Positions 14,110 to 52,080 of a DNA stretch of 64,000 nucleotides are shown here, piece by piece; positions within the stretch are counted from its first letter, which is position 1; each line of letters starts with the position of its first letter. The notes below the pieces were generated by a model. The model made no database searches. It saw nothing but the letters and a program-made list of their open reading frames with translations, and was not told the DNA's origin. This DNA comes from Zopfochytrium polystomum (taxonomy: Eukaryota > Chytridiomycota > Chytridiomycetes > Chytridiales > Chytridiaceae), in assembly GCA_025765615.1 (NCBI GenBank), contig JAIVFJ010000102.1, positions 62,001 through 126,000 of the forward strand. The letters are read 5' to 3'. The position numbers and the translations under genes were made by a program.

Positions 14110-14226
14110 AGGGTGGCCGAAAACAGTGTTAAATTCGGGTGCCTCTTCCTTGGGCAGTCTTTGACGGCGGTCCCTTGGGGCCACAGTGGAAAGACAGTCC
14201 CTGCTGGGCCCTCCTTTTTGTAAACA
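14110..14226 (-). pseudogene. Decayed copy of a gypsy gag zinc-knuckle segment
   Basis: The minus strand resembles the better-preserved gag segment at about 17190-17260: matching words GCCCAGCAGGGACTGT, TGTGGCCCCAAG and GACTGCCAAGGA, with substitutions and indels. Only this short piece is present and it joins an LTR fragment directly. Confidence 0.5.
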
Positions 14227-14227
14227 G

Positions 14228-14399
14228 TCTGTCACACTTGCCTAGCAACTATTATGGCATGCATATCATCATCATGTATCAATAATTCATAACAGAGTTT
14301 GATTTCTTTCTCTCCAAGTTGGGAGAAGGACCACCCACAGACACACATCTCCACTTCATTCACTCCTTCCACTCACTCACTCAGAGTAGACTGTTTACA
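14228..14399 (+). mobile_element. Copia-type LTR fragment (3' part)
   Basis: Shares long near-identical stretches with the LTRs at 31567-31855 (opposite strand) and 56694-57068: ATGTATCAATAATTCATAA, CTCTCCAAGTTGG, GAGAAGGACCACCCACA and ACTCAGAGTAGACTGTTTAC. Only the right half is present; the left joins gypsy gag debris. Confidence 0.75.
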
Positions 14400-14869
14400 C
14401 ATCAGCGCGCCAGCCATCTGGCTGCATCAACCACAGATTCTAGCTCAGAACAACACTATCTACCACCTCCAACAAACAGAATCAGCATAGCTCAACTTTA
14501 GAAACCATTTCATTTGGGAGGCCTAAAAATTTCAACACCCTCTCCCGGCCGACCCTCTCATTCAATCTGGGCTTCCAATAGTGCATCTGAAAGCTCTGAT
14601 TATCCTCTTTCGAACAAGCTGTCACGCAGCTCTCTATGTTGTCTCTACAGAATTTGATTGGCCTGAAGTTGCAAATGCTTCCTCAACTTTGCGTGATATC
14701 GTCTCGATGGCGAGAAGCGATCAGAGGACGCCCTTACACAGCTGTATTTGCCTGCTTCTGCTCTTTCCATTGATATCTAACGTGCCAAGCTACGACGCCT
14801 GCAGCAGGAGCTACAAGGGATTTTGATAAGGGGGTCCAAAAGTCAGATGACCACTACCTCCAACCAGAA
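14400..14869. other. Unassigned transposon-zone DNA
   Basis: About 470 bp with no coding exon, RNA gene or clear repeat that I can identify. It lies between an LTR fragment and a copia pol fragment, so it is probably old element sequence. Confidence 0.4.
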
Positions 14870-16640
14870 TTTTGTCCTTTCTTGTGTGACAAGTCAACCC
14901 AGCAGAACACCAAAGGTGGAGGTGGTGATTCAATGACAGATTCCAGTTCAGCGTCAATGGATGCCACTATGTGGCCTACCATTGGAGCTAGGCTCTCTTC
15001 AGGTTCATCTCGTCTTTGCCAATGACGACAGCAAATATGTTGGGGTTCCAACCATAGTCATCATCGTCCATATCTTGGGGAACTGTTGGAGGTTGATCTG
15101 AGGTGTTTGTCCATGATGATGGTGGCCACCCTGGAAGACTGGTGCAGTTGCTGGTGAGTACGAGAGGAGGGAGCACTGTCAGGAGGAGAGTTGGATAATT
15201 AGCGGGAAGAGTCAAGTGGTGGCTCAAAAGGTTCAAAAGAAGGAGAGTTGCCAGTTTCAGGAAAATCAGTAAAATCATCAGAAGGAGGAGTTAAGAAATC
15301 AGAATTAAGAGATTGAAGCTTAGTGTCACTGCGGACAAGGCCAGGAAAGACATGCTCATGCAAGTTGTAGTGGTGTGTCTGAAGGATGGTCCTTCTTGCA
15401 AAGTTGTAACTGAGGGCAATAGACTTGCTGTCTGTGTCGAAGCCCAAGAAGAGTCCAAGTGAGGCCTGAGGAGAGAGCTTGGTCTTGCGTGAGTTTGCAG
15501 GTTCTGTGTACTCATTGTTGAGTGTGACAATGAGGCAGCCAAAAATTCCAAGGTGGCGTAGATTGGGTTTTCAGCCTTGGTAATATCAAATGGAATTCAA
15601 CCAGTGTGAGTGTGTTGCACACAATTGCACAGGAATGAAGCATGGCGTATTGTGTAGGACCAGAAGAACAGTGGAAGCTGGGCTTCGATCAGGAGACAGG
15701 AAGCAATGTGGGTGATGACCTTGATGGCATTTTCTGCAACACCAATCACCCTCCTTGACGTAAGGGACAGAAGGCTAAAAGACAACGGGAGGTTGGTGGT
15801 TGATACAGTAGGCCTCAAATTGCTGAGTTTTAAGACTGAGATTGTCTGCTCATTCAAATAACATTCAATGAGTGGGGAAGAGTTGCTCTTCAAAATCAAT
15901 GCAATCAATTGTCTGCTGAGTGACGCCTGCTGTGTGAGCGACAGTGTTGACCTGAGCGTAGCCTGTGGTGTAGTCGACAATAACTTCAAAGTAGTTGAAA
16001 CCATCAAGAGAATGTGTGCTGATCTTGCCAGTTTGGTTGGTACACAGCATCTGCAGCAGAGCAAAATCAAAACAAGGCTTGGCTATGAGGTGTTGCCATA
16101 TCGCAAATGAGGCAAGGCTCGTGTGTTGTTGGTGGTGGAGCAGGAGCACTGTTGACATCACCAGACTTGAGAGTGTCACGTACTTGCTCTCGGTGGATGT
16201 GGCCAAAATGTCAGTGCTAAAGGTTGTGTGCAATTGCTGGTGATTTGTATGCAATGGGCTCAAATGAAATTGTCCTCTGCCCAGCTGGGTGCTGGACTGA
16301 GATAAGATAGGATAAAAGCCGTTATGTCGTTCGCCAATCTTGATGCCATGTTGAGATGTGAGTGTAGCAAGATCAAGAAGAAAGACTGAATCTTGAGTGA
16401 ATAGCATCCCAGCAGTTGGGTCTTGGACGACATGCAACACAGAGAGAAGCAGTTCCTTGAGTGATGGGACATGAAGCATATTGCAGAGCACCACATCAAA
16501 ACCAGGAAAGGTAAGCGTGACAGATCCAATTCCATTGATGCGGCAGAACTGTGGAACTTGAGTCTTGGCTGGGATTTGTGAACTGCAGGCTGACACTGGA
16601 GTTGTCTGTGGTGGTTGACCTTTAATACCTGGCTGTGAAC
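14870..16640 (-). pseudogene. Ty1/copia pol fragment: GAG-pre-integrase and integrase, multiply frameshifted
   Basis: Reading the minus strand from 16640 down: CNMLHVPSLKELLLSV is the GAG-pre-integrase signature. Integrase core pieces follow, including STHSLDGFNYFEVIVDYTTG and VGVAENAIKVITHIASC...LPLFFWSYTIRHASFLCNC. Then comes the post-integrase motif GLFLGFDTDSKSIAL with LQTHHYNLHEHVFPGLV, and the hinge MDDDDYGWNPNIFAVVIGKD. Frame changes and stops interrupt it several times. Reverse transcriptase and RNase H are missing downstream. It adjoins gypsy gag-protease at about 16640, forming a chimeric relic. Not a functional gene. Confidence 0.8.
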
Positions 16641-18078
16641 CTTGAATCAAGGACTTGCGAGCATGAGACTTGGGGCTTGACTTGAGTTTTGTGTGACTGT
16701 TCCAATTGGTGGAGGTTGGACTTGACCAGTGACCCAATCAATGGCAGGGTTCTGGGCTTGCAGCCATGGTAATCCCAGGATGACAGAAAATGTGGATGAG
16801 CCAAGATCCTATACTTCCAGGTTGACCATGGATGGTGGAAAGTCTTGGATGTGGAGGTTTAGGTTGGTTTCATGGCTGATTTCCTTGAACAGAGCATGAT
16901 CGGCAAAGTAGACCTTGAGGGGTGTGGGTTTCCTGATGGTGGAAATGGAACAACACTTGACAAGGGTGGCATCAATGATGTTGCAGGATGATCCAGAGTC
17001 GATAAGGGCCTTGGTTGTGATGGTTGACTTGGGTGAGAGTTGAATCTTGACATCCATGGTGAGTTGGTGGGGCTTGGAATCTGAGGTGTTTGTGGTGCTG
17101 GTGGTGGTGATGAAGCAGGGGCAGCTTGGAGGAGGGTCCAGGGAATTACCCCTCAGTGAGCCTGGACCAGGGAGTTTGGTTGCTTCTTCCTTGGCAGTCC
17201 TTGACAGCGTGGTCCTTGGAGCCACAGTAAAAACACAGTCCCTGCTGGGCCTTCCTTGTTTTCTCCTCTTGGCTCAGAGGGCACTTAGGAAGTGTCTCAA
17301 CTGCATCCACTTGCATGGGTTCAGGAACTGTAAGAGCTTGAGGACTGGGGTAGGTCTTGATGTAGGTCCTACTTGTCTTTGCTTCAGCCTTTTGGAGTAG
17401 AGTCTGTTGTCAATCTTGATGGCAAGGAGTATGTATTCTTCCAAGGTCTCAGGGATGTGCAGAGACTGGGAAAGCATGTCTTGGATATACTCATGGAGAC
17501 CATCATGGTACAACTCCATCAGAGCTGCATCATTGTATCCAGAGTCTCTGTCTCTGGCTAGTTGCTTGAATTGGTTGGTGTAGGCCACACAAGATTGCTT
17601 TCCTTACTTGATATGCTTGAGCTTGGATCTTGCTGTCCAAGATGCGTAGGGTCACCAAAGGTAGCTTCCAGCCCCTCCCAGAGCTCTTGCAGGGTAGTGG
17701 GTGCGCTTGGGAGCGATCTGTACCATGATTGGGCTTGACCAGACAGGAGGGTGCTTGTGAAAAGAACCTTGACTTGCTCACTGGGAAATCTTGAAGGTTG
17801 GAGAAGGATGACATTCTCCACAGTCGCCATAAAGTTCCTGAGGTCTTTGGCCAGCCCAGTGAACTTGTCAGGGCTGGGAACCTTGGGCTCTCTTGCTTGG
17901 TTGGCTTGAGGCAGGGGAAGAGCTTGATGTTCTTGTTGGTGAAGTTGTTGTTGAAGCTGGTGCTGCTGGTGAAGGACTTGTTCTTGAAGTTGGTGTGTCT
18001 GTCTTGAAGGGCTTGTAATTGGTCCATCAAGGCTTGGAAGGCAGTTGCATCAGGGAAGGTGTTGTTTGGGTCAGACAT
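16640..18078 (-). pseudogene. Ty3/gypsy gag and aspartic protease remnant
   Basis: Starts MSDPNNTFPDATAFQALMDQ at 18078. In a shifted frame it continues with gag-like FPSEQVKVLFTSTLLSGQAQ, SWYRSLPSAPTTLQELWEGL and MELYHDGLHEYIQDMLSQSL. A zinc knuckle follows near 17200-17245 (C-F-Y-C-G-S-K-D-H-A-V-K-D-C, the C-X2-C-X4-H-X4-C pattern). The retroviral-type protease has active-site ALIDSGSSCNII (about 16990) and the later ILGLPWLQAQNPAIDWVTG. At least two frame changes break the reading. Reverse transcriptase and integrase of the gypsy type are absent. The 5' LTR appears to lie at 18130-18548. Confidence 0.8.
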
Positions 18079-18129
18079 GATGGCAGAGAGTAGTAGGAGA
18101 GGGTGAAGTGAATTATGATGTCAGGAACA

Positions 18130-18548
18130 TGGCAGGACAGGACAAGGCAGACAAGGAACTGAGAGGAGTGATGATTGTAATGGAAACAATAATTCACTTG
18201 AGGGATGGGACAGGTCCCCCATCCCCCTTTTATACCTTTTGAGAGTCTTCCTTGTCAAGACTCAACGAAAGTTCCAGAAAGAGCAATTAGTAATATGATA
18301 CCAATGATACCAATGACAACAAGACAAGTCAGGAAAGCAAAGAAGGTTCCAGAAGGTCCTCTGGAAGGTTCCAGAGGTTTCCAGAGGGTGATTCATAACT
18401 GGCAGCGACTTTGTCGCTGCCAAAGCAGCCAAATAATCCAGAAATCGAGGAAAGAGCAGCCTCAGTGCCTTTGGCACCTCTGCTGCAAGCAAAAAAATAT
18501 GAACTATTGCAATGATGCCCACGACCCAAGGCAAATTTTCCACTGACA
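18130..18548 (-). mobile_element. Probable gypsy 5' LTR with promoter
   Basis: On the minus strand this starts TGTCAGTG at 18548 and contains a TATA-type box GGTATAAAAGGGGGA (about 18222-18236) shortly before the gag start. A closely similar segment recurs on the plus strand at 55250-55372, supporting a dispersed LTR. The exact 3' end and primer-binding site were not resolved. Confidence 0.6.
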
Positions 18549-37670: not shown

Positions 37671-38706
37671 ACTGCCACCCCCAGCTCATACACACAGTCA
37701 GAGAAGGAATAAGGGCAGGCAAGAAGACTTCAGGTACAGGTTCTAAGGGGCAACAAGAATGGGGGGTGGGCTGCTTAAATAGGAGAGGGTTGGAATCAGC
37801 AGGGTGAAGGAAGAAGGAAGGGAAAAGAGGGGAAAACATATACAAAAGAACAAAACAATAAATAAAACAACAAAGAAGAGAGAGGAGGAGTGAGTCACCA
37901 AACAATGGGGCTGAGCCATCAAACAAGGAAGACAGCTCAGAAAATCATGGAGCATTTCTTGGCATCAGCTGCCAAGAAAGATGGAGGAGATGGAGAGAGC
38001 TGGTTGGTGCAAAGAGGAAGACAGTCACTCACAGCCACAAAAGAAAAGAGAGACACACACAGAGACAACAAACAAACAAATAAATAAAAGATAAAACAGT
38101 AAAAACAGGAAAAACAGGATAAACTACTAATTGAAAAAATAAGTAAAAATCATCAATAAAGAAAGGAGAAAAAACCCTATGATCTCATACCCTTTTATGA
38201 GGCCTTTCATCATTATAGCTTATGTAGCAGCTCTGTGTTAGCTCTGTGTACACCTGGACTCTGTACTTCTACCCACTGAAGCACATCATCCTAATCCATT
38301 TCCAAAAGTGAGGGGGCAAGGCTTAGTCATAGTGCAGAACTTAGCATTTCTGCATCATTCAGTTAGTGACTGCCAGCATGTCTCGAACTTAGCACCTTTC
38401 CCATTGAAGGGAGCGCTCTACACCACTGAGCTAGAGGGCCTCTGGCCAAGAGTGCAGAGCAGCCTGAGCCATTCGGCCTGCAACTTAGTGCGTAATAATA
38501 ACATGAATAATATACATGGCCGCGGCTAAGAGACAGTCCAAATCTCAGTGGTTCGGCTTGCAGGGACAATAATAACCCATGAAAATAATAAGAAATGGGG
38601 TCCAGCCGTGTTACGTCACTTTTGTGAAACGTTGTTTGGTCAAGTCAAATTGATAATCCTCACAAGTTATCAGTTAAAAAAGCGGGGTATACTCTTTTTA
38701 TTTGAG
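37671..38706. other. A-rich unassigned DNA
   Basis: A purine-rich stretch, largely A/G on the plus strand from 37780 to 38180, with no coding support, followed by the tRNA-derived sequence and about 250 bp of ordinary DNA up to the first array element at about 38707. Nothing further recognised. Confidence 0.4.
38371..38440 (-). other. tRNA-derived sequence (pseudo-tRNA or SINE head)
   Basis: The minus strand reads GGCCCTCTAGCTCAGTGGTG then TAGAGCGCTCCC, a textbook tRNA 5' half with A box and D-arm. It is followed by an anticodon-arm-like CCCTTCAATGGG and a B-box-like AGTTCGAGAC. Stem mismatches at the T-arm and acceptor suggest it is not a working tRNA. Confidence 0.6.
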
Positions 38707-39187
38707 GTCGCAGGCAAGGATCGGGAGGGGGGACTCAACCCCCTCTTGATACTCCCTGCGAAGTAGTAGATCGGAGAGGTGCGTGTAAGGCGGGGGGCAG
38801 CGGGGTGAGCCGCCGCCCCGAGCATAGCGAGGGGGGGGGGGGGGGCGATGGGGGCAAGGGAGGAACATCGCATAATACACCCAAACCAGCAACACTCGGC
38901 TTGCCAACCCTCTTACCTTCGCATCCCGGTACTGCGAATTTCCCGGGCCGATCAGGGGGATCGCATCCCATGCGGAAGGCCTGGGGTGAGCTGCGCGGCG
39001 ACGGGCTGCACCGAGGGGGGGATCGCGCGCGAGGCCAACCGCCATCATCTCGCTACTGCTATTTTCACGAGCTGGCTGGGGGGATCGCATCCCATGTGGC
39101 GGGATGGCCAGGCGCAGCGCTGTTAAGCGCCCCGCACGCCGGCGGGTTCGCCCAACACCACCCCCGTAAATTGCAAAGTTTTTCCTA
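38707..39187 (-). mobile_element. Type B non-coding array element, copy B0 (5' part only)
   Basis: On the minus strand the element begins AGGAAAAACTTTGCAATTT at 39187 and matches the first third of B1 and B2: GGGATGCGATCCC words, TACTGGGATGCGA and a GTGTTGCTGGTTTGG segment. It stops near GGATCGGGAGGGGGGACTCA, so the GC-rich repeats and the telomere-like tail are missing. No coding frame. Confidence 0.65.
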
Positions 39188-40689
39188 CTAACCCTAACTC
39201 CTCAAGAAATTTATTATCTACTACAACTGTTTTGGTGATCGAATCCACCCTCACCGGCCCAATGATGAAGTGGAAACAACAGTTAGAGACCTGCATCTAG
39301 GCCCGAATACGCCGAGTGCGGGCGTGAGGGAAAAAAGGGCGAACCTTGAAAAAACCCACACTAACACCCAACGAAGAACAACCACCAACGGAAGCTATGA
39401 GGCCCAACCCCCCCCCCCAAATGAGGGGGGGGGTGGGAATGCGTAGGGCCCCCCGATCAGAGGGGGGGCGAGTCGAAGAAAGAAAAGCGTATGTCGAAGG
39501 GTAATGCAGAATTCGAAGAAAAAGCAGAGATCGAGTCGAAGAAAGAAAAGGAAAAATCGAAGAATAAGCACAGTTCGAAGAGGAAGCAGAGATCGAAGAA
39601 TAAGCAAAGCTCGAAGAGAAAACAAAAAGCAGAGCACGAATCACATGCGGAAGCCCCCGGACTAATCAACAGGGGCAGGTCGAGAAAAAAGCAAAGTAAG
39701 AAAAGCAGAAAACAGAGGCGTACCCCAAAAGCCCGAGGGGCGGCGCCGCCAGGCGCCGCCCCATCCAATCCGGAGTAGGTGACACCGGAGGCGCCGACCC
39801 AGCCGATATGCTGAAGGGCGGCGCTGCAAGGCGCCGCCCCAATCCAAAGGGTGGCGCCCCGCGAGGCGCCGCCCCGATCCGAAGGGTGGCGCCCCGAGGC
39901 GCCGCCCCAGCCGAAGGGCGGCGCCGCGAGGCGCCGCCCCATTCCGAAAGGTGGCGCCCCGCGAGGCGCCGACCCAGCCGAAGGGCGGCGCCGCGAGGCG
40001 CCGCCCCAATCCGAAACGCGAGAAGCGGTGCCGCACGGCGCCGCCAAAGCGGCCGGCGCCGACGGCGCCGGGAACGAGAAAGTCCGTGACATGGCAGGAA
40101 AAAAGGATCGGGAGGGGGGACTCAACCTCCTCTCGTGTTCTTACCCGCCATGGTGAATCGAGATCGAGCGGGGAGCGACAGGGTCAGCTGTCACTCCGAG
40201 CATTGCGATGGCGCAGGTCGGAGAGGATGCTACGATCGAAGAGGAGAAAAAAAAAGGAAAAGGGGGGTGCCGAGGCACCCAGAGCGACGGGGCAAGGGAG
40301 GAACGTCGCAATACCACCAAACCAGCAACACCCGGCGATCGCGCCCACACTTACTATCGCATCCCAGTACTGCTAATTTCCTGGGCCTCGGCAGGGGGAA
40401 TCGCTTCCCATGCGATCAGCCTTGAGGGGGGACGCCGAGGGGGGGATCGCGGTGCCGACGATCTGAGAGCGTCCTGCTACTGCTATTTTCGCAGGCCAGC
40501 CAGGGGGATCGCATCCCACGCTTCAGCCTCGCCGGTCCCGGCGCCGCGATCGCTCACGACGCTGCAGGGCCTGCCGCACGCCGGCGGATGGGGCCCCACA
40601 CCACCCGCCGCCGCCATCGAAGGCGACGGCGTCGGCGGCGGCGGCCTCGCCGCCGCCACCACCCCCAAAAATTGCAAAGTTTTTCCTCA
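39188..40689 (-). mobile_element. Type B non-coding array element, copy B1 (apparently full length)
   Basis: About 1.5 kb bounded by CTAACCCTAAC at both sides (39188-39198 and next to 40690). On the minus strand the order is: conserved 5' segment AGGAAAAACTTTGCAATTT; a region with GGGATGCGATCCC words; a GC-rich array of about 33-bp units with GGCGCC palindromes (39727-40075); a TCGAAGAA-type tandem array (about 39470-39640); paired C-tract/G-tract hairpins (39408-39475); and a tail ending AGGAGTTAGGGTTAG. It has no credible protein: open frames are repeat translations. Probably a non-autonomous retroelement mobilised in trans. Confidence 0.68.
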
Positions 40690-42780
40690 CTAACCCTAAC
40701 TTTTCAACAGGATTTATTCGCTCCAACCCCCCCCGAGGGAAAGGGTGAGGAATCTGCAACTTTGAAAGTTAAAAAGTGCGTACATATGAAATAGGAGAAA
40801 CATGTCCAGAGGCAAGAAAGAGGTGCCAGGTAGAGAATCAGAAAGCCCAAGAGAAACAAAGGATGGCAACTAGGTCAAAAGTAAAAGAGGGGAGGACCCA
40901 CAGAGGTGAACTGAAATTTAACAACAAGAAAACAAATAGATAACAAATGAGGTTCGAAGGACTGCACCTGAAACACTGCACAAACTGTCACCCAATTCTG
41001 GCCTCCTCATCTGAATCAGAGTCCACATGCCCATTGCCGTCCACTGTCCCCTCAACACCCTCAGTTTCCTTCTTCTTCCACTTCTCCCTTGACTCCTGCC
41101 ACTGTTTGTTCCGTACTGGATCATAGGTGGTGACGATGACTGACCTTGCAAGCGTGCGCACCCTGGCTGCTGCCAACCTTTCCTGAATGCTCATATCCTG
41201 TCTGTCCACACAACCTGCCTCCACCACAACCTCTGCCTCCTCTGCTGCCGTTGTCTCTGAAGCATCAGTGAAATTCGCAAGTCCTCCACACTCAATACGC
41301 ATCTGCATGATCATTCTGGCCAGCTTCATTCCCATCTTCTTGGAGGCAATGCGAGTCTCCTTGGAGATCTTGTCCTCAGCTTTGGTACTGTAGGGGGCCC
41401 AAAAGACCAGCGACCTTAGGCCCAAATCCACTGCTGAAATGTTCAAATCCTGTTGCTCTGCAGTGGGAATCAACTCAGGATGCAGCCTCTCCAGCCTGTC
41501 CTTAACACCTGAACACTCCAAAACATGCCTCCTAGTGCACTTCTCTGCACAGTCAGCCCTCACACACTGTTGGTGAAATGCTACCATCCCAGCCATCCAC
41601 ATCAGCAGGTGTCTGAGCCACTTCCTGTTAAATGCCGCCCCAGATCGAATAACTTGGCATGGCCCCATGTGTGAAGGCACCTCCAAAGCCCGCGCCACCC
41701 CAGTGGGGGAGGATTTCTGCTGGCACCTCACCAAAGCCCGCTTGTGCATTGCCAGCATGTCTGCAGCCTCAATGTTCTTTGTTCTCACCACCGGCAACTC
41801 AATGTCATAGGCTTTGGTTGTGGGGACCACAAGTGGCAACTCCACAAAGGAGGGCCGCCTCACCGAGTTCAAGAAATCCTGAATATCCATATAGTCAAGC
41901 GAAAACTTTGTCAAGGACTGTCCCACAGAGGCCCCTGATGCAATCTTTTCCACCATGTGCCTGTACATCTGAGCTGTTGTGTTGCGAGCATCCTGAATGT
42001 GGTGCAGTCTGAAAAAGTATCTAGCGTTCAGCATCTTGTTCCTGGCTGCCACAGGGACCACTCCAAACATCAGATGCAGGGCCGCCCCTGAGGAGGTCTT
42101 CCCCAGTGACAGCACCTGCCGCAGGCACTTGTCCTGCAACTTCTGCGCATCCTTCAGCTGTGTGTGGGTCAGGGGACGCAGTGCAAACCCATACTCCATC
42201 ATTGGTCTCAGGAAACACATGTAAACCCTGTAAGAGCTCACGGGCCTGAAGCCCCAGCCATTGAAACCCCGAGCAGCCAAAAAGGCCAGCATCTTTTCTG
42301 TTTTCCTCAGTCTCATGGCCAGTGAGGCCTCAAAGAATACCCCTGCAGGTGCGCACAAGACCCAACTGGGTAGTAGACTCCTCCTGGGGAATCTCCACTC
42401 CATTCATCTTCAACTTCAAATTCTTCTTGGCTGAAACTGCAACACACTTCTTGGCAGCAAATGTCATCCCCCGCTTAAGGGACCACTCATGCACCTTGTC
42501 TAGCATTCTCTGAAGTACTGTCGCATCCTTGGCAAAAACTGAGGAGTCGTCTGCAAAGAGTAGCGAGTTGAGCGAGGTTGCATTAAATGTCAGCATGTGG
42601 TCCCTGAAAGACATGGCCAATGTCTGAGGCAAGGAGTTGATGGCAACATTGAACAGCATGGGTGACAGGACTGTGCCTTGGAGAAATCCTCTTGTCACTT
42701 GGATCTGAGCAGACTTGTTCCCAAGTACCAGCAGCTGGCATGCATTGAAATCAAACAAAGATCTGAGAATCGGCAGCAGA
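40690..42780 (-). mobile_element. Type A non-LTR retrotransposon, copy A1, 5'-truncated in RT
   Basis: On the minus strand it starts abruptly inside the reverse transcriptase (RSLFDFNACQLLVLGN) at 42780, immediately after another element's telomere-like tail, and runs to its own tail AAAAGTTAGGGTTAG at 40690-40700. The 3' UTR has CTTTCAAAGTTGCAGATTCC. 5' truncation is the usual result of target-primed reverse transcription. Confidence 0.85.
40988..42758 (-). pseudogene. LINE reverse transcriptase C-terminal half (A1)
   Basis: Contains RGFLQGTVLSPMLFNVAINS, the catalytic NSLLFADDSSVFAKDA (F-A-D-D box) and RRGMTFAAKKC-like KRGMTFAAKKC. A one-base frameshift near 42338 comes next. The second frame holds RKTEKMLAFLAARGFNGWGF, a long thumb/connector and a C-terminal zinc-like cluster (C-x4-C-x3-C-x4-H-x3-C in CVRADCAEKCTRRHVLEC). 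It ends DSDSDEEARIG with TGA at 40988. The upstream finger/palm part and endonuclease are absent. Related to, but clearly diverged from, copy A2. Not functional. Confidence 0.88.
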
Positions 42781-44064
42781 CTAACCCTAACTCCTCAAGA
42801 AATTTATTATCTACTACAACTGTTTTGGTGATCGAATCCACCCTCACCGGCCCAATGATGAAGTGGAAACAACAGTTAGAGACCTGCATCTAGGCCCGAA
42901 TACGCCGAGTGCGGGCGTGAGGGAAAAAAGGGCGAACCTTGAAAAAACCCACACTAACACCCAACGAAGAACAACCACCAACGGAAACTATGAGGCCCAA
43001 CCCCCCCCCTTTCGGGGGGGGTGGGAATGCGTAAGGCCCCCCCCCGCACTGAGGGGGGCCAAATCGAAGTGAGAAAAGCGTAAATCGAAGAATAAGCACT
43101 GTACAAAGAGAAAGCAGAAGTCGAAGAATAAGCAAAAATCAAAGAGAGAGCCAAAATCGAAGATAAAGCAAAAACCAAGGAGTGGCGCACCAGGCACCAC
43201 CCCATCCGAAGTGGGTGACGCCGCGATGCGTCGCCCCAGCCGGAGTGCGAAGGGTGACGCCCCGAGGCGCCGCCCCAACCGAGATGCAGAGGGTGGCGCC
43301 CTGCGGCGCCTCCCCGACGCGTCGCCCCAATCCGAAGGGCGGCGCCGCTCGGCGCCGCCCCAATCCGAGGGGTGGCGCCCTGAGGCGCTGCCCCAATCCG
43401 TGGGGAGGCGCCCCGAGGCGCCGCCCCCAATCCGAAGGGCGGGGCTGCGAGGCCGCCCCAATCGAAGTGCGTGGGGTGGCGCCGCCCGATCCGAAGGCTC
43501 GACCGTGACAAGGGGGAAAAAAGGATCAGCAGGATGGGCCGTCAGGCCCGTCTGACTTGCATGCGATCGAGCGGGGGGCAGCAGGGTCAGCCGCTGCCCC
43601 GAGCGTGGTGAAGTCGTTCGAAGAGGTTGCTAAAGTCGAAGAAAAGGAAGGGCGCCGAGGCGCCCAGAGCGACGGGGGCGAGGGAGGAACGTCGCGATAC
43701 CGCCAAACCCGCAACACTCAGTTTGCCCACCCTCTTACCTCCGCATCCCAGTACTGCTAGTTTCCTGGGCCACCGGCGGGGGGATCGCATCCCATGCGTA
43801 GGCCTGGGGCGAGCTGCGGGGCCGAACAGGCGCGCCGGCCCGGGGCGCTGCACCGAGAGGGGGATCGCGCGTGAGGCCAACCGCCTGCATCTCGCTACTG
43901 CTATTTTCACGAGCCTGCCGGGGGGATCGCATTCCATGCGGCGGGATGGCCAGGCGCGGCGCTGCGATCACGATCGCAGCGCTGTCGAGCGCCCCGCTCG
44001 CCGGCGGGTGCGCCCGACACCCCCCCGCCACCCACCGACCCCAAAAATTGCAAAGTTTTTCCTA
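42781..44064 (-). mobile_element. Type B non-coding array element, copy B2 (apparently full length)
   Basis: About 1.28 kb between telomere-like junctions at 42781-42791 and 44065-44075. It has the same module order as B1: 5' segment ending at AGGAAAAACTTTGCAATTT, GGGGATGCGATCCC words, GC-rich GGCGCC array (43175-43500), TCGAAGAATAAGCA array (43060-43175), twin C/G-tract hairpins (42998-43065) and a tail nearly identical to B1. Unit number in the arrays differs from B1. No credible ORF. Confidence 0.68.
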
Positions 44065-44359
44065 CTAACCCTAACTTTTCAATAGTGTATTATTCGCTCC
44101 AACCCGAAGGTGAGGAATCTGCAGCTTGAAAGTTAAAAAAAGTGCATGCATATGAAGGAAGGAAGGTCCAAGAGGTCAGAGGGGGCCCATGTGAGAGAGA
44201 GAGAGCCAAAGAAGAAGAAAAACAAAGAGGCCAAGGTGAAGAGAAGAAGTCTGAAAGAGCAGTAGAAACAAACGTAAACCAGACAACAGCTTAATGTCAA
44301 AAAGTCAACTCAACAAAAAACAAATGGAAAACAAATGATGAGGCAACAGAAACAGACAC

Positions 44360-47201
44360 TCATCCACCTCCCACTGAAGCACCACTCTCTGTATCAGAGT
44401 CAACCCACCCGGATCTGTCTGGCTTCCCCGTCACTCCCTGAGTCTCCTTAGCCAGCCACCTGTTCCTCGATTCCCTAAACCCCTTGTTGCGCACTGGATC
44501 CCAGTGCGCACGCAGGGCTTCCCTAGCTTGCCGCCGCACCTGCGCCATCTGCATGCGAGTCCTCAGATCCGCCCTCCTATCATCCACTGTCCCTGCTTCC
44601 ATCAAATAATCTGCCTCCTGTTCTGCTGTGGTCTCTGAAGCATCCACAAAGTCTCTCATTCCAGCGCATTCCACTCGAATCTTTGCAATCAGCCTAGCAA
44701 GCTTCATCCCCAGCTTCTTTGAAGCGACCCTCGTCTCCTGAGGGATCTTATCTGCATCATTGGCTGTGTATGGTGCCCAGAAAGTCAGAGTCTGCAGCAG
44801 CAGATCCAGCACTGTGATGTTCCTCCTCACCTGCTCCAGGCTTGGGACGCACTCAGGTTGTTCTGCCTCCAGGAGGCGGCGCACGCCTGAACACTCCAAG
44901 GCATGGTTCCTGTCCAGCTCAGCATCACACTTCTTGCACTTCTGGTGATAGGCCACACGTCCACCCATCCAAGCCACAAGGCATCTCAACCACCTCCTGT
45001 TAAACATTGCACCAGAACGAACCACCTGGCAGGGCCCCGGGTGAGGGGGGACCACCAGGGGTGCCGCCACCCCAGTCAAGTTGGCCTTTTCCTTATACTT
45101 CTCCAGTGACACAGTGTGCATCTTCTGCATAGCAACAGCATCAATGTTCTTGGGCTCAGATCTGGTAACTTCAAGGTCATATGGATAAGTCCTGTGTCTG
45201 ACAAATGGAATCTGTGCCAAGGCCTTCCGTGGCACTGACCCAAAATATAGATCCACATCCGGTGTGAACAGAGTGAGCCTGGTGAGGGATCCTGCAGGAG
45301 CCCGCCGCCCCCGCTCCGCCATGTGCCTGTACATGTGTGCAGTGCTGGTCCTGAGTGTGGTGCAGTCTGTAGAAATATCTCGCGTTCAACATCTTTTTGC
45401 GTGCAACCATTGGCACAACTCCAAAAATCAGATGCATTGCCACAGTGCTGGATGTTTTCCCAAACGACAGAGCCTGGCGCAGACACATGTCCTGGACCTT
45501 CTGGGCCGGGGCCAAGAAGGCCTCTGAATTTGGCCTCAGTGCAAACCCATACTCCAGCATGGGTCGCAGAAAGCACATGTACACCCTGTACGCATTCACA
45601 GGCCGGAATCCCCAGCCATTGAACCCTTGAGATTTCAGAAACTGAAGCATCTTCTCAGTCTTCTTCACCCTCATCTGCAGAGACGTCTCAAAGTCGATGC
45701 CATTGCAATCACGCACAAGTCCCAACTGCAGTGTAGTCTTCTCGTGGGGGAGCACCACCCCATTCATCTGCAATCTCAGGTTCCTTGTCTTGGAAACAAC
45801 AACACATTTCTGTGCTGCAAAGGTCATGCCCCGCCTCTGGGACCAGTTGTGGACTTCATCAAGCATTTTCTGAAGGACAGCCTTGTTCCTTGCAAACACT
45901 GCAGAGTCATCAGCAAACAGCAGAGAGTTGATCTTCAATCCACCACATTGCAACTGGCTGTGGGGCACCCTGGAGAGCGCCTCAGGCAGCGAGTTGATGG
46001 CAACATTGAACAGCATCGGGGACAACACAGTTCCCTGTAGAAACCCCCGAGTCACTGGGATCTGATCAGACTTCTGGCCCATGACCAGAAGCTGACACGC
46101 ATTAAAGTCAAACAGGGATCTGAGAATCGGCAGCAACTGGTTCCTGGTAAACTCAGGACTCTTGTCATTCTTGGCATTCCAGATGGCCTCCCACACATAG
46201 TTCCTGTTTGTGCAATCATAGGCAGCCTTGATGTCCAAGTACACCACAGTCAGATCAGGGTACTGTTGCTGAAGCTCATGCAGAGTGAATGCCTGGTCCA
46301 TGGTGGACCTGTGGCGCCTGAACCCACCCTGTGAGGGGTGGATCATTCCTTCAACCACTCTTTCCACCTGCAGGGCCAACACCCGCTCATACACCAGCCT
46401 CAGCCTTGAGCACAGAGAGATTGGCCTGTAGTTTGCCACATCAGTGTTCACCCCCTTGTTCTTGTACACAAGGGCAACATTCGCGATCCCCCAGAGTGTG
46501 GGAACCACCTGGAGAGCTGCAAGCAACTGGAAGAATCTCTGCAACACAGGAGCCACCACATGTGGGGCAATGCACACCAGTTCGCCAAACAGGGTATCCT
46601 CCCCTGGGGCCTTGCCCCGGGGTGCAATCTTGCAAGCCTCTTCCACGGCATTCTTCTTGATCCAGGCAACTTCAGATAGCTGCAGAGGCACCATGAGTCG
46701 TTCAGCACTGCAGGCAGCTAAGACATCCTGATTGACGGCATCAGTGCCAGTTGGCTCATGGCCAATGGTTCCCCTAAAGTGATCAGCATAGTCTGGAAGT
46801 TTCTGAGGGTCAAGGGCACAGTGAGTGCGCTCCACTCTGGATTTCTGACACTTGATTCTCTTTGCTTCAGCAGCAAAGTCCTTGACAGCTAAATCCTGCA
46901 CAGCAGAGTACACCCTCTTCCTGTAGCGCTTGATGGCCACCTTTGTCAGCCGGTTCCACTGCCTGAACTTTGCCCAGGCGTCCTTCTGCCCGACAGGATC
47001 ATCATCAGGGTGGGCTTCAGCCTCCATGCGGGACAGGTCCCGCCGGCGCTTCAGCTCCTCCAAATGCTTCTCCTCGACATCAGGGCCGCCTGCACCACCC
47101 CTAAACTTGGTCTTCCCAGCCACTTGGACTCCAGTGTCCACAAGCCACTTCACCACCCCTAAACTTGGTCTTCCCAGCCACTTGGACTCCAGTGTCCACA
47201 A
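44360..47201 (-). pseudogene. LINE reverse transcriptase and C-terminal domain (A2)
   Basis: The RT block order is visible: YRPISLCSRLRLVYERVLAL, GGFRRHRSTMDQAFTLHELQ, TVVYLDIKAAYDCTNRNYVW, VTRGFLQGTVLSPMLFNVAI, SLLFADDSAVFARN (F-A-D-D catalytic box), GMTFAAQKCVVV. The thumb/connector has GFNGWGFRPVNAYRVYMCFL. Near 45335 the frame changes by one base into AHMYRHMAE... (45334-44360). That part carries CKKCDAELDRNHALEC (C-x2-C-x8-H-x3-C) and ends TESGASVGGG. Apart from the 58-bp duplication and this shift the reading is intact over about 900 codons, suggesting a fairly recent copy. Confidence 0.88.
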
Positions 47202-48138
47202 GCCACTTCACCACCAACTGAGAGACAGAGTCTGCACAGGCACGCCTGCGCTCAAAAGACCACTCCTCCTGGGCTACAGCAGCAGCATTCACAGTCTTCC
47301 ATGCTGAGTGAATCTCTTGTCTCAAGGGCTTCCTGGTCTCTGCAAGTTTCTTCTCATACTGGACTTGTCTTAACATCAGCCTGCGCACATTCAGTCTCTC
47401 AAAGGGTGGTTTCATGGTCAAGTGTGTTCGAAGCTCAAAGGTGAGCATCCTGTGGTCTGTGAAAGCCAAGTGTTCCTCAGGTTCGTCATGGACAACCAAG
47501 TTATGCACAGCTCCAAGTCCGGCTCGATTCACAAGGAGCAAGTCAGTGACACCCCTGCCCACAGGGCCAGCAATTCTAGGTGAGAAGGTGGTCCACTGGC
47601 CCCGAACTGGCTCAACCCTGCTCCATCCTGAACCATCAATCCAAGCACGCCACCAGTCTACCCTCAGCCTGGGCTGCGAGTGGGCACAGCCGTACTCCTG
47701 CAGTGAAGTGTTGAAATCTCCAATGATCAGAAAGGGTGCCTGGGGATTAGCCCCTGCAATCCTGTCTGCTGTTGCTGAGAATGACTGAAGCACCTCCAAA
47801 TCCGTCGAGGGTGCAAAGTACACCACTGCCATAATAATCTCTGACATCCTCGCAATGACCCACTCCCCCTTTGTGTCCTTCTCCAATGTCTGAACCACCA
47901 GGTCCTCCTCCATCCTCCTGCCCTTATGAATGGACACCCCCTTCTTGCCCTTATGCCCAAGCCGCTCCTCAAACTCCAACGCCGGTCCCCTTGAGTCAGC
48001 CACCAATCCCCTCAATGGGTTATTCTCCACCACAGTGATCCCAGTGTCCACCAACAAAATATAGTCTGATTGGAAATCTGAAAATGCTTGGTCTATGTTC
48101 TTGACATGTCCTGAGAGCGAGCAGTTCAAGTTCACAAA
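47101..48138 (-). pseudogene. LINE APE-type endonuclease domain (A2)
   Basis: No ATG is present at the left edge because the element is 5'-truncated; reading opens at NLNCSLSGHVKNIDQAFSDF. Endonuclease-family motifs are visible: LLVDTGI (catalytic-acid region), LIIGDFNTSL (the G-D-F-N signature), GVTDLLLVNRAGL, and LAFTDHRMLTFEL (catalytic S/T-D-H). Such domains nick the target for target-primed reverse transcription. The reading breaks at its end because a 58-bp tandem duplication (47102-47217) shifts the frame into the RT part. Confidence 0.85.
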
Positions 48139-48139
48139 A

Positions 48140-48736
48140 CTAACCCTAACTTTTCAACGGGATTTATTCGCTCCAACCCCCCCCGAGGGAAGGGGTGAGG
48201 AATCTGCAACTTTGAAAGTTAAAAAGTGCGTACATATGAAATAGGAGAAACATGTCCAGAGGCAAGAAAGAGGTGCCAAGTAGAGAATCAAAAGGCAGAA
48301 GAGAAAAACAAAGAACAGCAACTAGGTCAAAAAGAAAAAGAGGAGACGATCCACAGAGGTGAGGTGAAATTTAACAACAAGAAAAGAAATAGAAAACAAA
48401 TGAGGTTCGAAGGACTGCACCTGAAACACTGCACAAACTGTCACCCAGTTCCAGCCTCCTCCTCTGAATCAGAGTCCACATGCCCATTGCCGTCCACTAT
48501 CCCCTCAGCACCCTCGGTTTCCTTCTTCTTCCACTTCTCCCTTGCCTCCCGCCACTGTTTGTTCCTTACTGGATCATAGGTGGTGATGATGACTGACCTT
48601 GCAAGCTTGCGCACCCTGGCTGCTGCCATCCTTTCCTGAATGCTCATATCCTGTCGGTCCACACGACCTGCCTCCACCACGACCTCCGCCTCCTCTGCTG
48701 CTGTTGTCTCTGAAGCATCAGTGAAATTCGCAAGTA
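48140..48736 (-). mobile_element. Type A element copy A3, strongly 5'-truncated
   Basis: Contains only the last 80-odd codons of the ORF2 product (48441-48735: VDRQDMSIQERMAAARVRKL, ...EGIVDGNGHVDSDSEEEAGT) and the 3' UTR, almost identical to A1. It ends in the telomere-like tail at 48140-48150. Bounded by tails on both sides. Confidence 0.85.
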
Positions 48737-51025
48737 CTAACCCTAACTTTTCAATAGTGTATTATTCGCTCCAACCCGAAGGTGAGGAATCTGCAGCTTG
48801 AAAGTTAAAGGACTCATACAGGTGGACAGAAGAGTAGAGACCCAAGCAACTAAGGATATGACAACAAGGAACAGGATGGAAGGACGAAATATGAGATGCA
48901 CAAGCAATGCCTAGTAATTGCAAGCCAGCAAGGGCAATTCGGAGAGGGAAGCAGGTCATAAAACGAGGATAATGGCGCTTAGCGGTGGGAAAAAAGATAG
49001 TCTGAGAATAAAAGTAACAACAACAGCCAAAAACATAAGAAAGGAGGAAAAGAAGAAAAAGCACAACAACAACAGCTCAACCCTCCATCGCCTCAGAGGG
49101 AGGCAGGAGCCGGGCTAGGCCCGGCTCTAGCCGTGGACGGAGGTGGTCAGGGAAGGCTGCGACAATGCAGCGGCGGAGGTCAGTCGGGAAGGCGTTCCGT
49201 GCCAGTCGGGACCTTCGTCGAAGAAAAGCGTCAGCTGCACGGTCTGAGGCTGCGACAATCGCAGCTTCGTCCGTTTCAGACACAAACGGAGGGAGTGCTG
49301 TGGGGTCGAAGTCAGGGAGGTGTTCAAAGATGTTGGGGTGGTTAGAAAGGAACGTCGCGAACGGGATCACCCGTTCCTCTGCCACCCATGCCTCCCATAG
49401 ACGTAGGCCTCGGCCAATCGGAGAAAGTTCTGGTGCATACGGGGCCTTCATGGCGGCAAGCGAAGCTCGCAGCCAGTGAAGGGGGTTCTTGCGAGCCTCC
49501 GGATGCGAAATCAATGCACGGAAGTAAACGGGGACGTATCGGACGGGTTCACGCGCGGCAGGACGCGTGAGTGGTCGGAAGACAAGAGCTGGGATGGTGT
49601 CACTAGGCGCCAAGCTCAGCTCGACAGCTTGCTTGGCTTGTCGGGAGGGGTATTTAGGTTGGGCAGTCCGGTCCCCCTTGCGGGAGCCCTCGGAGCCCGC
49701 TCTGTAACCCTTTCCCTTGGCCCGAGCAGGCTGACCGTTCCCAGCTTTGGTAGGCGCGATGGGTTCGGAGAGAGGGTCGGTGTTGACGGCTGCATCAATG
49801 GCGGGGGGGCGAACTGGTGGTGGCGGTGCCACCGCCGCCGCTGCCACCGCCTCCTCCACAGCGGTCAATCGACTGCGAAGGTCGGAGATAAGCTGATCTT
49901 GGTCGGTGATGATGCGTTCCATGGTAAGAAAAATGGGGGCGAGGGTGGTGCGGGCGGCCGTGGCTAGGCTGTCGAGCTGGTTGCGGATGTACTCAGGGGT
50001 ATTCAAGTCGTTGGGACTTGCCTCGATGCGCACGATGTGGTCAAGGAAACTGCGTGGAGGCGGGTGATTCGTTCTGACGAGGTGTCGGGGGGCCGCACGA
50101 AGCAGGGCATCCAATCGTGACATGCCAGATCGGGGGAATGAACGTGAGACAGAGTGCTCTCTGTCCGCAGGCGGAGAAGCAGACAGCGTGCCGCTCATTG
50201 TACTCCCACATGTGGGAGTGGTGAGCGGCGTCGATGGCTGCGGCGGGGGCGCGACCAAATTAGGCAACGCCACCGCTCCGGAAAGTGGCTTTTCCGAATT
50301 CGAAAATTGCGGCCGTTGGGTGGCCGCAAGTGTTGATGTCGTAGGATCCGGGGGTGGAGGGGGCAGTGAGGGGGTCGCGTCCCGCGACCCCTCTCCCCCC
50401 ATTGCGGCAAGCGGCGGTAGTGCAGCCAGCGGGGAAGGGCGATCAGTGTGATCAACAGCAGGTCGTTTGCGTTCTGAGGGGAAGGCCACCTCGCCAGAGA
50501 CAGCCTCGCGAGCTCGACGAGGCAATGCTGCTAGTGAGGCCCGAAGTCGGTCGGAGAGGATGACGTTGCTACTGCCCAATACGAGGTGGAATCGTGTTTT
50601 ACACTTGCAGGCAGAGCAGCTTACGCTGAGTCCGCGAACGCCTGTAAACTTGGTCCGACGACCAGCCTTCTCTGGGCTGGTCACAGCCGCCTTGCAACAT
50701 GGCGATCGCAGAGTCGAGCGTACAGCGTAGAAAAGTGCGAGCTCCAGGGCCTCAAACTCTGCCCCAGACGTCGGGGCCCAGTTAAGCTGATCTGGGGACG
50801 GGTGATCGACGGATTTGCGTTTTGCTTGAGGTCGACTCGTTTTCGGTGTCGAGGGTGGGGGAAGCGGAGGGAAGTCGGCGCTGTGTACAGCGGCAAAGGG
50901 CGATGGCGAAAAGAAGTCTGTGATTGGGCGGGAAGGCAGGGTCGACGCTGCTGGCACCGTGGTCGACGACCCGGAGGCTGGCTTTGCAGGTGTCTTCCCC
51001 TTGCCACTCATAATCGAAAGTCACA
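48737..51025 (-). mobile_element. Type C element: ORF-only, non-RT element sharing the LINE A2 tail
   Basis: About 2.3 kb between telomere-like junctions 48737-48747 and 51026-51036. It carries a single intact 644-codon frame, a 3' UTR of about 270 bp unlike that of A2, and then a terminal block of about 60 bp (TTTCAAGCTGCAGATTCCTC...TATTGAAAAGTTAGGGTTAG) that matches the A2 tail. Sharing just the end suggests the A-type RT recognises that tail and copies this element in trans. Alternatively it is the ORF1 part of a LINE with internal loss of ORF2. Confidence 0.75.
49077..51011 (-). CDS. 644-aa Cys-motif, Pro-rich element protein (ORF1/gag-like)
   Basis: A single uninterrupted exon from MSGKGKTPAKPASGSSTTVP to LLPPSEAMEG. 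N-terminal third: Ser/Pro-rich leader with a PIP-box-like RPITDFFSPSPF, then a Cys cluster around residues 105-142 (S-P-C-C-K, later SVSCSACKCKTRFHLVLGSS), which may be a zinc-binding fold. The middle is Pro-rich and low-complexity; a helix LISDLRSRLTAVEEAVAAAA may be a coiled coil; a basic patch KGKGYRAGSEGSRKGDR follows. The C-terminal part is globular-looking, with VPVYFRALISHPEARKNPLH and LRLWEAWVAEERVIPFATFL. It could be a nucleic-acid-binding ORF1 protein of a LINE system. No known family recognised. The intact frame implies recent activity or selection. Confidence 0.75.
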   Translation of the reverse strand: MSGKGKTPAKPASGSSTTVPAASTLPSRPITDFFSPSPFAAVHSADFPPLPPPSTPKTSRPQAKRKSVDHPSPDQLNWAPTSGAEFEALELALFYAVRSTLRSPCCKAAVTSPEKAGRRTKFTGVRGLSVSCSACKCKTRFHLVLGSSNVILSDRLRASLAALPRRAREAVSGEVAFPSERKRPAVDHTDRPSPLAALPPLAAMGGEGSRDATPSLPPPPPDPTTSTLAATQRPQFSNSEKPLSGAVALPNLVAPPPQPSTPLTTPTCGSTMSGTLSASPPADREHSVSRSFPRSGMSRLDALLRAAPRHLVRTNHPPPRSFLDHIVRIEASPNDLNTPEYIRNQLDSLATAARTTLAPIFLTMERIITDQDQLISDLRSRLTAVEEAVAAAAVAPPPPVRPPAIDAAVNTDPLSEPIAPTKAGNGQPARAKGKGYRAGSEGSRKGDRTAQPKYPSRQAKQAVELSLAPSDTIPALVFRPLTRPAAREPVRYVPVYFRALISHPEARKNPLHWLRASLAAMKAPYAPELSPIGRGLRLWEAWVAEERVIPFATFLSNHPNIFEHLPDFDPTALPPFVSETDEAAIVAASDRAADAFLRRRSRLARNAFPTDLRRCIVAAFPDHLRPRLEPGLARLLPPSEAMEG

Positions 51026-51272
51026 CTAACCCTAACTTTTCAATAGTGTATTATTCGCTCCAACCCGAAGGTGAGGAATCTGCAGCTTGAAAGTTAAAAA
51101 GGTACATGCGTGTGAAGGAAGGAAGAAGGTCCAAGAGGTCAGAGAGGACACATGTGAGAGAGAGAGAGCCAAAGTAGAAGAAAAAAGGAAAGAGGCCAAG
51201 GTAAAGAGAAGAAAGCAGAAAGAACAGAAGAGACAGGCTTAAAGCAGACAACAGCTTGAAAACGAAAATCCG
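51026..51272 (-). mobile_element. Type A element copy A4: 3' UTR only
   Basis: On the minus strand this matches the A2 3' UTR (44065-44310), including CTTTCAAGCTGCAGATTCCT, GGCTCTCTCTCTCTC and CTTTGGACC-like words, and ends in the same tail at 51026-51036. All coding sequence is gone. It joins tRNA-like sequence at about 51273. Confidence 0.8.
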
Positions 51273-51333
51273 TACCTAGGAGGGAGTCGAACCCTCGCCC
51301 CTATTTTCGGAGGGTCACTTATTTTCTAGGCAC
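51273..51333 (-). other. Short tRNA-like fold lacking a D-arm
   Basis: The minus strand has a possible 7-bp acceptor stem (TGCCTAG with CTAGGTA, one wobble), an anticodon-arm-like hairpin CCCT/AGGG, and a perfect 5-bp T-stem GAGGG-TTCGACT-CCCTC containing a B box. About 61 nt, with AAAATAAGTGA in place of a D-arm. It may be a mitochondrial-type tRNA relic, a SINE head or chance. Confidence 0.4.
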
Positions 51334-51612
51334 TGTGAAACCTTGAGCATGCGTAGCACACCAGTAGCCGCTCTCATCAGTCACGCCGGTCAGTATAGCC
51401 TCCCTTAGCTGTCCTTTCGGGGAGCGTCATTGGGGACATCACTCAAGTTAACTGCGCGGCCCAGTACCACCAAGGTACTTTCCCGTTACTTGTGCTACCT
51501 CGCCTGGACTAGGTACGCCAACAATCCCTAGCCCAGACTAACCACCAGGGGGTATCCTTTGCCTGTGGCCAGGGTGTCCTTATCGGGTGGTTTTCAGTTG
51601 ATAATTCCCTGT
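51334..51612. other. Unassigned sequence between two tRNA-like pieces
   Basis: About 280 bp inside the LINE array with no coding frame. The inverted words AGGTACTTTCCC and GGACTAGGTAC are short and not convincing as a structure. It is possibly the body of a SINE or a captured host transcript copied with the flanking tRNA-like heads. Confidence 0.35.
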
Positions 51613-51682
51613 TTCGTCCTTCTGGGAATCGAACCTGGGCCCCCACTGTGCAGGTCAGCTGACTTAGCCACTGTCCTACACA
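51613..51682 (-). other. tRNA-like sequence with A and B boxes (SINE-head candidate)
   Basis: The minus strand has GTGTAGGACAGTGGCTAAGT then CAGCTGACC (A-box/D-arm-like) and, about 35 bases on, CAGGTTCGATTCCCAG, a good B box. Stems are imperfect, so a functional tRNA is unlikely. It sits right before the telomere-like junction at 51691. Confidence 0.5.
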
Positions 51683-51690
51683 GGCTGGCA

Positions 51691-52080
51691 CTAACCCTAA
51701 TGCTTCAAAGGAATTTATTATCTACTACAACTGTTTTGGTGATCAAATCCAACCCACTGGCCCAATGACAAAGTGGAAACAACAGTTAGAGATCTGCATC
51801 TAGGCCCGAATACGCCAGGTGCAACGCATGAGGGAAAAAAGGGCGAACCTTGAAAAAACCCACACTAACACCCAACGAAGAACAACCGCACACAGAAACT
51901 ATGAGGCCCAACCCCCCCCTGAAAAGGGGGGGTGGGAATGCGTAGGGCCCCCCGCTAGCCGAGGGGGACCAAATCGAAGAAACAAACGCGTAAATCAAAG
52001 GAGAAGGCAAAATACGAAGAGAAAGCAAAGTAGTGAAGAGGAAGCAAAGATAGCAAGCAAAGAACAGAAAAACAAAACTA
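51691..52080 (-). mobile_element. Type B array element, copy B3 (3' part)
   Basis: The 3' part of a type B element: tail (variant CTAACCCTAATG at 51691-51702), the conserved segment ending GGGCCTAGATGCAGATCTCT, both C/G-tract hairpins (51910-51968), and a short AAGAGGAAGCAAAGA array. The GC-rich array and 5' part are missing. This is the last recognisable member of the array on this side. Confidence 0.7.

Follow-up and report, generated by a model that had tools for sequence, protein, structure and literature searches.

Nine units in one orientation

We analysed a 64,000-nt window of the genome assembly of Zopfochytrium polystomum, comprising positions 62,001-126,000 of contig C102 (231,854 bp; the assembly holds 80.16 Mb in 761 contigs), which contains a head-to-tail array of retroelements joined by telomere-type sequence. 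Positions without a contig name refer to the window; short contig names (C4, C16, C22, C102 and the like) and locus names (L011, L016 and the like) denote pieces of the same assembly. The array is made up of pieces of two families of long interspersed nuclear elements (LINEs), an element with open reading frame 1 only (ORF1-only element), a tRNA-like short interspersed nuclear element (SINE) and four copies of a non-coding element, type B (Table 1). All nine units lie on the minus strand, and neighbours are separated by nothing but one sequence of 12 nt (12-mer), ACTAACCCTAAC on the plus strand and GTTAGGGTTAGT on the coding strand.

An earlier note on this DNA, made from the letters alone, had described eight telomere-type junctions between units of the same direction that abut with almost no filler. 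All eight were found in place, with CTAACCCTAAC exact at seven of them and CTAACCCTAAT, which differs by one change, at 51691; dinucleotide-preserving shuffles gave a mean of 0.37 and a maximum of 2 chance matches to CTAACCCTAAC with one mismatch allowed. The coding-strand consensus is (G/A)TTAGGGTTAGT, and position 12, the base that follows GTTAGGGTTAG, is T in eight of eight junctions. The count of nine units with four of type B also held; however, the four units that the note had grouped as type A are a mixture of one family-1 LINE, two family-2 LINEs and the ORF1-only element.

Table 1. Units and junctions of the retroelement array in the window, from left to right
Feature	Position	Strand	Evidence or remark
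Left flank, dispersed repeat outside the array	38581..38708		39 matches at 98-100% identity including itself (40 of 271 candidates scored)
Type B (non-coding), 5' end intact (AGGAAAAACTTTGC...), 3' part and tail gone	38716..39186	-	type B matches begin at 38716
12-mer junction GTTAGGGTTAGT	39187..39198	-
Type B with 5' end and 3' end ...TTGAGGA	39199..40688	-
12-mer junction GTTAGGGTTAGT	40689..40700	-
LINE family 2, 5'-truncated, reverse transcriptase fragment 42330-42758	40701..42779	-	RVT_1 match and family assignment
12-mer junction GTTAGGGTTAGT	42780..42791	-
Type B with both 5' and 3' end	42792..44063	-
12-mer junction GTTAGGGTTAGT	44064..44075	-
LINE family 1, 5'-truncated, APE-type endonuclease and reverse transcriptase, broken frames	44076..48138	-	Exo_endo_phos, RVT_1, L1 ORF2p match
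12-mer junction GTTAGGGTTAGT	48139..48150	-
LINE family 2, 585-bp 3' fragment	48151..48735	-
12-mer junction GTTAGGGTTAGT	48736..48747	-
ORF1-only element: 644-aa frame 49077-51011, then family-1 tail	48748..51024	-	no Pfam family
12-mer junction GTTAGGGTTAGT	51025..51036	-
tRNA-like SINE, family-1 tail, B-box-like GGTTCGATTCC in head	51037..51689	-
12-mer junction ATTAGGGTTAGT, first letter A not G	51690..51701	-
Type B 3' fragment, outermost at the 5' side, without 12-mer at its 5' boundary	51702..52080	-

The two LINE families are about 66-70% identical over their coding part and were characterised from better preserved copies elsewhere in the assembly. A family-1 copy (L016:3679-7452) has an open frame of 1257 amino acids (aa) that matches RVT_1 (5.8e-26) and Exo_endo_phos (1.3e-4, just under the cut-off), and a family-2 frame of 755 aa (L019:2792-5059) matches Exo_endo_phos (3.7e-6) and RVT_1 (4.6e-17), both over the cut-off. 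A reverse transcriptase of RVT_1 type and an apurinic/apyrimidinic endonuclease (APE)-type endonuclease in one frame, together with constant 3' tails and varied 5' starts (5' truncation), identify these elements as LINEs. Compared by sequence with solved structures, the reverse transcriptase is closest to the L1 type (L1 ORF2p, 2e-19) and then to R2 (3e-10); the endonuclease fragment matched none of them, and the NCBIfam search returned a single match, to a group II intron reverse transcriptase, under the cut-off. Rfam gave no match over 38-53 kb of the window at E up to 1. ARAGORN found no tRNA gene in the window, and the label 'tRNA-like SINE' therefore rests on letters that resemble the A-box and B-box consensus.

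Some features of single units should be mentioned here. The family-1 LINE holds a 58-bp tandem duplication (47093-47215), and type B units contain GC-rich tandem repeats of ~33-39 bp (39813-40015 and 43213-43497) whose copy number varies between units. The leftmost unit has neither 3' end nor 12-mer and adjoins the dispersed repeat. The rightmost unit is possibly the first copy of the array, since it has no 12-mer on its outer side.

The junction 12-mer as a barcode

We gathered 207 tails across the assembly by element-specific patterns in which the telomeric letters were either left free or had their first 11 fixed. For one of the fixed patterns the set includes 100 of 142 matches, all from contigs preceding C487 and a few from C487 itself; the free patterns required G or T at one later position, and the tails at C248, C112 and two at C81 are not among the 207. 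The exact 11-mer GTTAGGGTTAG was present in 132 of the 165 tails found with free letters (41/51, 67/78 and 24/36 for the separate patterns). The repeat thus stands next to most of these tails genome-wide, and the outcome that would have spoken against the earlier note, elements mostly at random interior sites and lacking TTAGGG at their 3' ends, was not observed.

Neighbouring copies agree in their 12-mer far beyond the shuffled expectation. In 44 multi-copy arrays the same 12-mer was found in 121 of 127 neighbouring pairs (mean 75.7 and maximum 90 in 10,000 shuffles), and among the 14 arrays with any non-canonical 12-mer 23 of 29 pairs agreed (shuffled mean 4.7, maximum 13), from which it follows that arrays grew by repeated insertion into one 12-bp site. 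The distinguishing base is T in C102, C38 and C383, A in C22 and C52, and C in C153 and C201; other arrays are marked by GTTAGGGATAGG (C151 and C321), GTTAGGATTAGG (C344) or GTTAGGGTTATG (C19 and C107). Within C102, C52, C151, C201 and C321 a single variant is common to different element families, and the 12-mer of later copies is therefore target DNA that is duplicated with each insertion. The junction 12-mer thus behaves as an array-specific barcode, and each insertion duplicates the 12-bp site. This barcode makes an array a record of insertion into one site, and distinguishes site-specific LINE insertion from recombination or telomere addition by sequence alone.

Origin of the tail and placement of the arrays

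Two loci show what an insertion site looks like without the elements. The array in C22 is flanked on both sides by GTTAGGGTTAGA, which follows CTTGACG at the 5' side and precedes CACCG at the 3' side. A related site in C190 (92% identical) reads CTTGACG/GACACCG and a second at C22:20.8 kb (78%) reads CTTGACC/GGCACCG (the slash marks the boundary), both without the 10-mer. Five places match the whole or nearly whole of the joined C22 flanks, namely these two, which were read, and C270, C501 and C47. At C4:672 kb a single 5'-truncated copy ends in GTTAGGGTTAG followed directly by TAGTACTGG, and a C16 relative of this 3' flank (93%) reads AACCAG/TAGTACTGG, without telomeric letters. C501 contains the C22 locus again, including the start of the array at an identical spacing (11.7 kb), which suggests a duplicated region or a second haplotype.

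At the opposite end of the elements, the 12-mer was absent from the 5' boundary in all eight interior units compared (C19, C4, C54, C112, C383, C321, C38 and the rightmost window unit; best match 7/12). To arrive at this set we examined 12 of the 30 loci L027-L056, six of which had the boundary inside, dropped L049 (C81), whose flank is LINE sequence, and added C19, C4 and the window unit; C22 was kept apart as an exception with the 12-mer at its 5' side. For C54 and C112 no unoccupied site was found: paralogues of their 5' flanks exist, but the 3' side of C54 is LINE sequence and the C112 paralogue continues differently. Since relatives of two loci lack the telomeric letters and none of the eight 5' ends has them, the elements probably bring the tail themselves. 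First copies would thus seem to arrive with the telomeric letters at their 3' end, and these letters would then serve later copies as the insertion site.

Alternatively, the 12-mer could be target only, for example interstitial repeats made by telomerase at healed breaks, with 12 bp duplicated at each insertion and no tail of the elements' own. The C22 locus speaks for this, as it has a telomeric insertion of 10-11 nt that is absent from two paralogues and flanks the elements on both sides, and so do the array-specific variants, which identify the 12-mer beside later copies as target DNA. However, where the 5' boundary of an interior copy was mapped, the 12-mer stood only at the opposite, 3' side, and the 11-mer at the 3' side of the C4 copy is missing from the related sequence. 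We therefore consider this explanation unlikely and prefer an element-borne tail, in keeping with one suggestion of the earlier note, namely that the repeat is part of the elements' own tail and that they home to each other; the barcodes, the 3'-only 12-mers and the relatives of two loci without the letters all support that suggestion.

Where the arrays lie depends on their 12-mer. Using contig ends as a proxy for chromosome ends, we placed 55 of 80 clusters on contigs of at least 80 kb, with clusters within 20 kb of a contig end counted as outward or inward; contig sizes were measured for all 24 clusters dominated by the perfect telomeric 12-mer GTTAGGGTTAGG and bracketed for 10 of the 31 others. 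Twenty of the 24 perfect-12-mer clusters are outward at contig ends, one is inward and three are interior (two of them a pair in C16), whereas the 31 clusters with other 12-mers comprise 7 outward, 7 inward and 17 interior (outward placement, one-sided Fisher P value = 7.7e-6). The perfect-12-mer arrays thus behave as LINEs targeted to telomere repeats, and the 31 others form a second class that is not bound to ends. The expected concentration of copies at chromosome ends therefore applies to the first class and not to the second, with 7 of 31. We gave less weight to contig-end placement as a mere effect of assembly, because a break inside an array should yield outward and inward ends equally, while the ratio of outward to inward is 20:1 for perfect and 7:7 for other 12-mers.

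At the ends of C4, C6, C17 and C18 and in one C16 array (L012, L022, L020, L023 and L018) the innermost junction consists of unique sequence, in the sense of being found once among the loci compared, then two to three telomere repeats and then the element. A perfect telomeric tract of 7-18 nt was present in all 58 distinct junctions beginning TTAGGG. This limit may reflect instability of longer tracts, which has been reported for MoTeR arrays (PMC7367193), or an endonuclease that acts only at the margin of a tract. Among the stretches read, long terminal TTAGGG tracts occur only at the right ends of C15 and C20; a degenerate one lies close to the start of C14. In C20 (521,150-521,330; L015) the terminal tract is joined within LINE coding sequence at a TTTAGGGA motif, which suggests a broken end healed within an array. 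With these tracts at the ends of C15 and C20, and with two over-cut-off matches to the telomerase RNA-binding domain, both in C88, the elements do not replace telomerase in the manner of HeT-A and TART.

Two further observations concern sequences near telomere-like tracts. In C16 (470,478-494,325; L016-L018) two arrays have their tails turned towards each other; between them lie degenerate TTAGGG and a subtelomere-like stretch, the latter found also near the start of C14; this suggests a chromosome fusion or a mis-joined assembly. Subtelomere-like sequence (GGGGGGCGACAGGACGAAG...) lies beside telomere-like tracts in four contigs, C14:1-2,010 (L013), C44 (L054 and L055), C190 (L044) and C16 (L016).

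These placements bear on a second alternative, in which the elements only ever insert into pre-existing telomere repeats and the window array is an internalised former chromosome end or fusion. The outward position of 20 of 24 perfect-12-mer arrays fits it, as do the fusion-like C16 arrays at 470-494 kb, which face each other tail to tail across degenerate TTAGGG, and interior MoTeR relics in the blast fungus have been attributed to internalised telomeres (PMC8381367). However, all eight window junctions have T where the telomere has G, which fits one host site and not a telomere tract; arrays with other 12-mers show no outward preference, and the relatives of two interior sites are without telomeric letters. 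As a full account we regard this alternative as quite improbable. The idea of the earlier note that the elements target telomeres, or that this array marks a former end, is thus supported as a genome-wide habit of the elements and not supported for this array. With T at every junction and ~101 kb and ~118 kb between it and the contig ends, the window array belongs to the interior class, and its derivation from a former chromosome end is not supported.

Amplification in tandem through recombination (by unequal exchange, a rolling circle or break-induced replication), or an artefact of assembly, is very improbable, despite the break-induced replication, D-loop amplification and some identical spacers reported for MoTeR arrays (PMC7367193) and the repeat-richness of contig ends for assembly reasons, as neighbours differ in family and start point, which is not expected from one amplified unit, and barcodes are mostly constant within arrays and different between them.

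Proposed mechanism and known telomeric elements

We consider it probable that the window array is a pile of endonuclease-bearing LINEs and non-autonomous elements with a common telomeric tail, built by self-targeting. We propose that the RNAs of these elements end in 11 nt of telomeric sequence, GTTAGGGTTAG (RNA 3' end GUUAGGGUUAG), following an A-rich 3' end. The first copy to enter an ordinary site would leave its telomeric tail there; priming at such an unrelated site would use one or two letters shared with the RNA terminus (AG at C4, G at C22), and the tail would be copied in. The endonuclease would prefer 12-mers of telomere-like sequence, both in true telomere repeats and in the tails of older copies, and would nick the C-rich strand (ending CTAACCCTAAC-3'), along which the RNA tail could pair over its length for target-primed reverse transcription. 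Extension of the nicked strand into the A-rich 3' end would keep the old target letters, variants included, beside the new element, and a staggered second cut 12 nt away would produce the 12-bp duplication and regenerate the target on both sides. Growth would then proceed head to tail, with every junction acquiring the host base next to the first tail (T in the window). Real telomere repeats would be the target of these elements at chromosome ends, where their 3' ends would point outward.

Four findings support this scheme directly: junctions carry a barcode, arrays occupy two kinds of location, 12 bp are duplicated around the C22 array, and three relatives at two loci lack the letters. From the junctions we infer the RNA tail, its pairing, the strand that is nicked, the cut positions and the preference of the endonuclease.

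Several observations weigh against self-targeting with an element-borne tail. At C22 the 12-mer lies on both sides of the array though two related sites are without it, and a tail-only first event or an insertion of telomerase type must be assumed there. Of the other three matches to the C22 flanks, C501 equals the C22:20.8 kb site in match length and identity; C270 and C47 do not fall short of the query by ~10 nt, and something could be present at the site in either of them. The C16 relative of the C4 locus matches it at the 3' flank and not at the 5' flank, and the related sites at both loci are paralogues, not alleles. The barcodes have exceptions as well: C55 holds two of them, C and T, one member deviates in each of C88, C151, C321 and the window array, and some copies have quite different 12-mers (GTTACAGTTAGG, GTCAAGGCTTAG and GTTAGGACTTGG) that would not be expected from a fixed RNA tail alone. 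Finally, both outer ends of the window array are without the 12-mer, and the first insertion there is therefore not reconstructable; no unoccupied site was found, given a dispersed repeat on the left and, on the right, a flank that had no match other than itself when 40 of 271 candidates were scored.

We also find it plausible, though somewhat short of probable, that the 11-nt tail acts as an RNA guide able to anneal to the nicked C-rich strand wherever telomere-like sequence occurs. Each copy would then be mobile element and landing pad at once, one founding event would start a chain of insertions at one base position, and the same guide would serve LINEs, ORF1-only elements and SINEs that differ in origin; bare tails from abortive events, as perhaps at C22, may seed interstitial telomere motifs. 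Self-targeting suggests how a telomere-specific element could colonise chromosome interiors, namely by bringing its own target, and offers a source of interstitial telomere motifs other than fusion.

The host sequence itself has fungal features. The chitin synthase N-terminal domain gave 14 over-cut-off matches in the assembly and none in any of 14 control genomes, and the window holds an RRG7 match of fungal type; both families are typical of fungi. Parts of the window at 14134-18399 are ~79-96% identical to other contigs (L011, L013, L014, L018, L022 and L051), which suggests other mobile elements or duplications.

TRAS and SART of insects belong to the R1 clade and have an APE-type endonuclease, and in SART1 a telomere-like motif of the 3' untranslated region reportedly fixes the start of reverse transcription. 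LINEs targeted to telomeres are known from insects, an anole, Chlorella, Giardia and fungi (PMC10088271). In the silkworm and other insects TRAS and SART resemble the elements described here in that they insert in telomere repeats and form arrays alongside the repeats made by telomerase; in the silkworm the two insert in opposite orientations (PMC10088271), and one of them should therefore match the orientation seen here. In contrast to them, the present elements have a fungal host, a 12-bp target duplication and interior arrays with site barcodes, and one telomeric tail is common to two LINE families, the ORF1-only element, SINEs and type B. No report of site barcodes or self-targeted interior arrays appeared in the titles and abstract openings surveyed, which leave the subscription literature mostly uncovered and are weak evidence of absence.

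Tx1-1_ACar of the anole lizard and Zepp of Chlorella lie in an L1-like group, Zepp with poly(A) joints. Both are telomere-associated LINEs, compared here by description only, and the best match of our reverse transcriptase among solved structures is L1 ORF2p. The tails of the Athena-type Penelope elements of bdelloid rotifers carry a C-rich repeat, whereas in the present elements the coding strand of the tail is the G-rich one, and they come with an endonuclease. Athena elements are likewise telomere-associated, and the telomeric repeats embedded in them (PMC10088271) make them a precedent for a retroelement that carries telomeric letters; the title of a reference in the same paper describes them as endonuclease-deficient Penelope-like elements.

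MoTeR of Magnaporthe and FoTeR of Fusarium are also fungal telomeric elements without long terminal repeats. MoTeR forms arrays with telomere tracts between copies (PMC7367193) and has left interior relics (PMC8381367). In MoTeR and FoTeR the endonuclease is restriction-like, and both group with CRE-type elements (PMC12857005); the 5' ends of MoTeR face the chromosome end (PMC7367193). The elements described here, with an APE-type endonuclease and 3' ends that point outward, do not match the CRE clade in these traits. Target duplications are not identifiable for FoTeR (PMC12857005), and MoTeR relics are described as being without them (PMC8381367). We regard the present arrays as a fungal APE-endonuclease counterpart to MoTeR, opposite in orientation and with a common, putatively guide-like tail.

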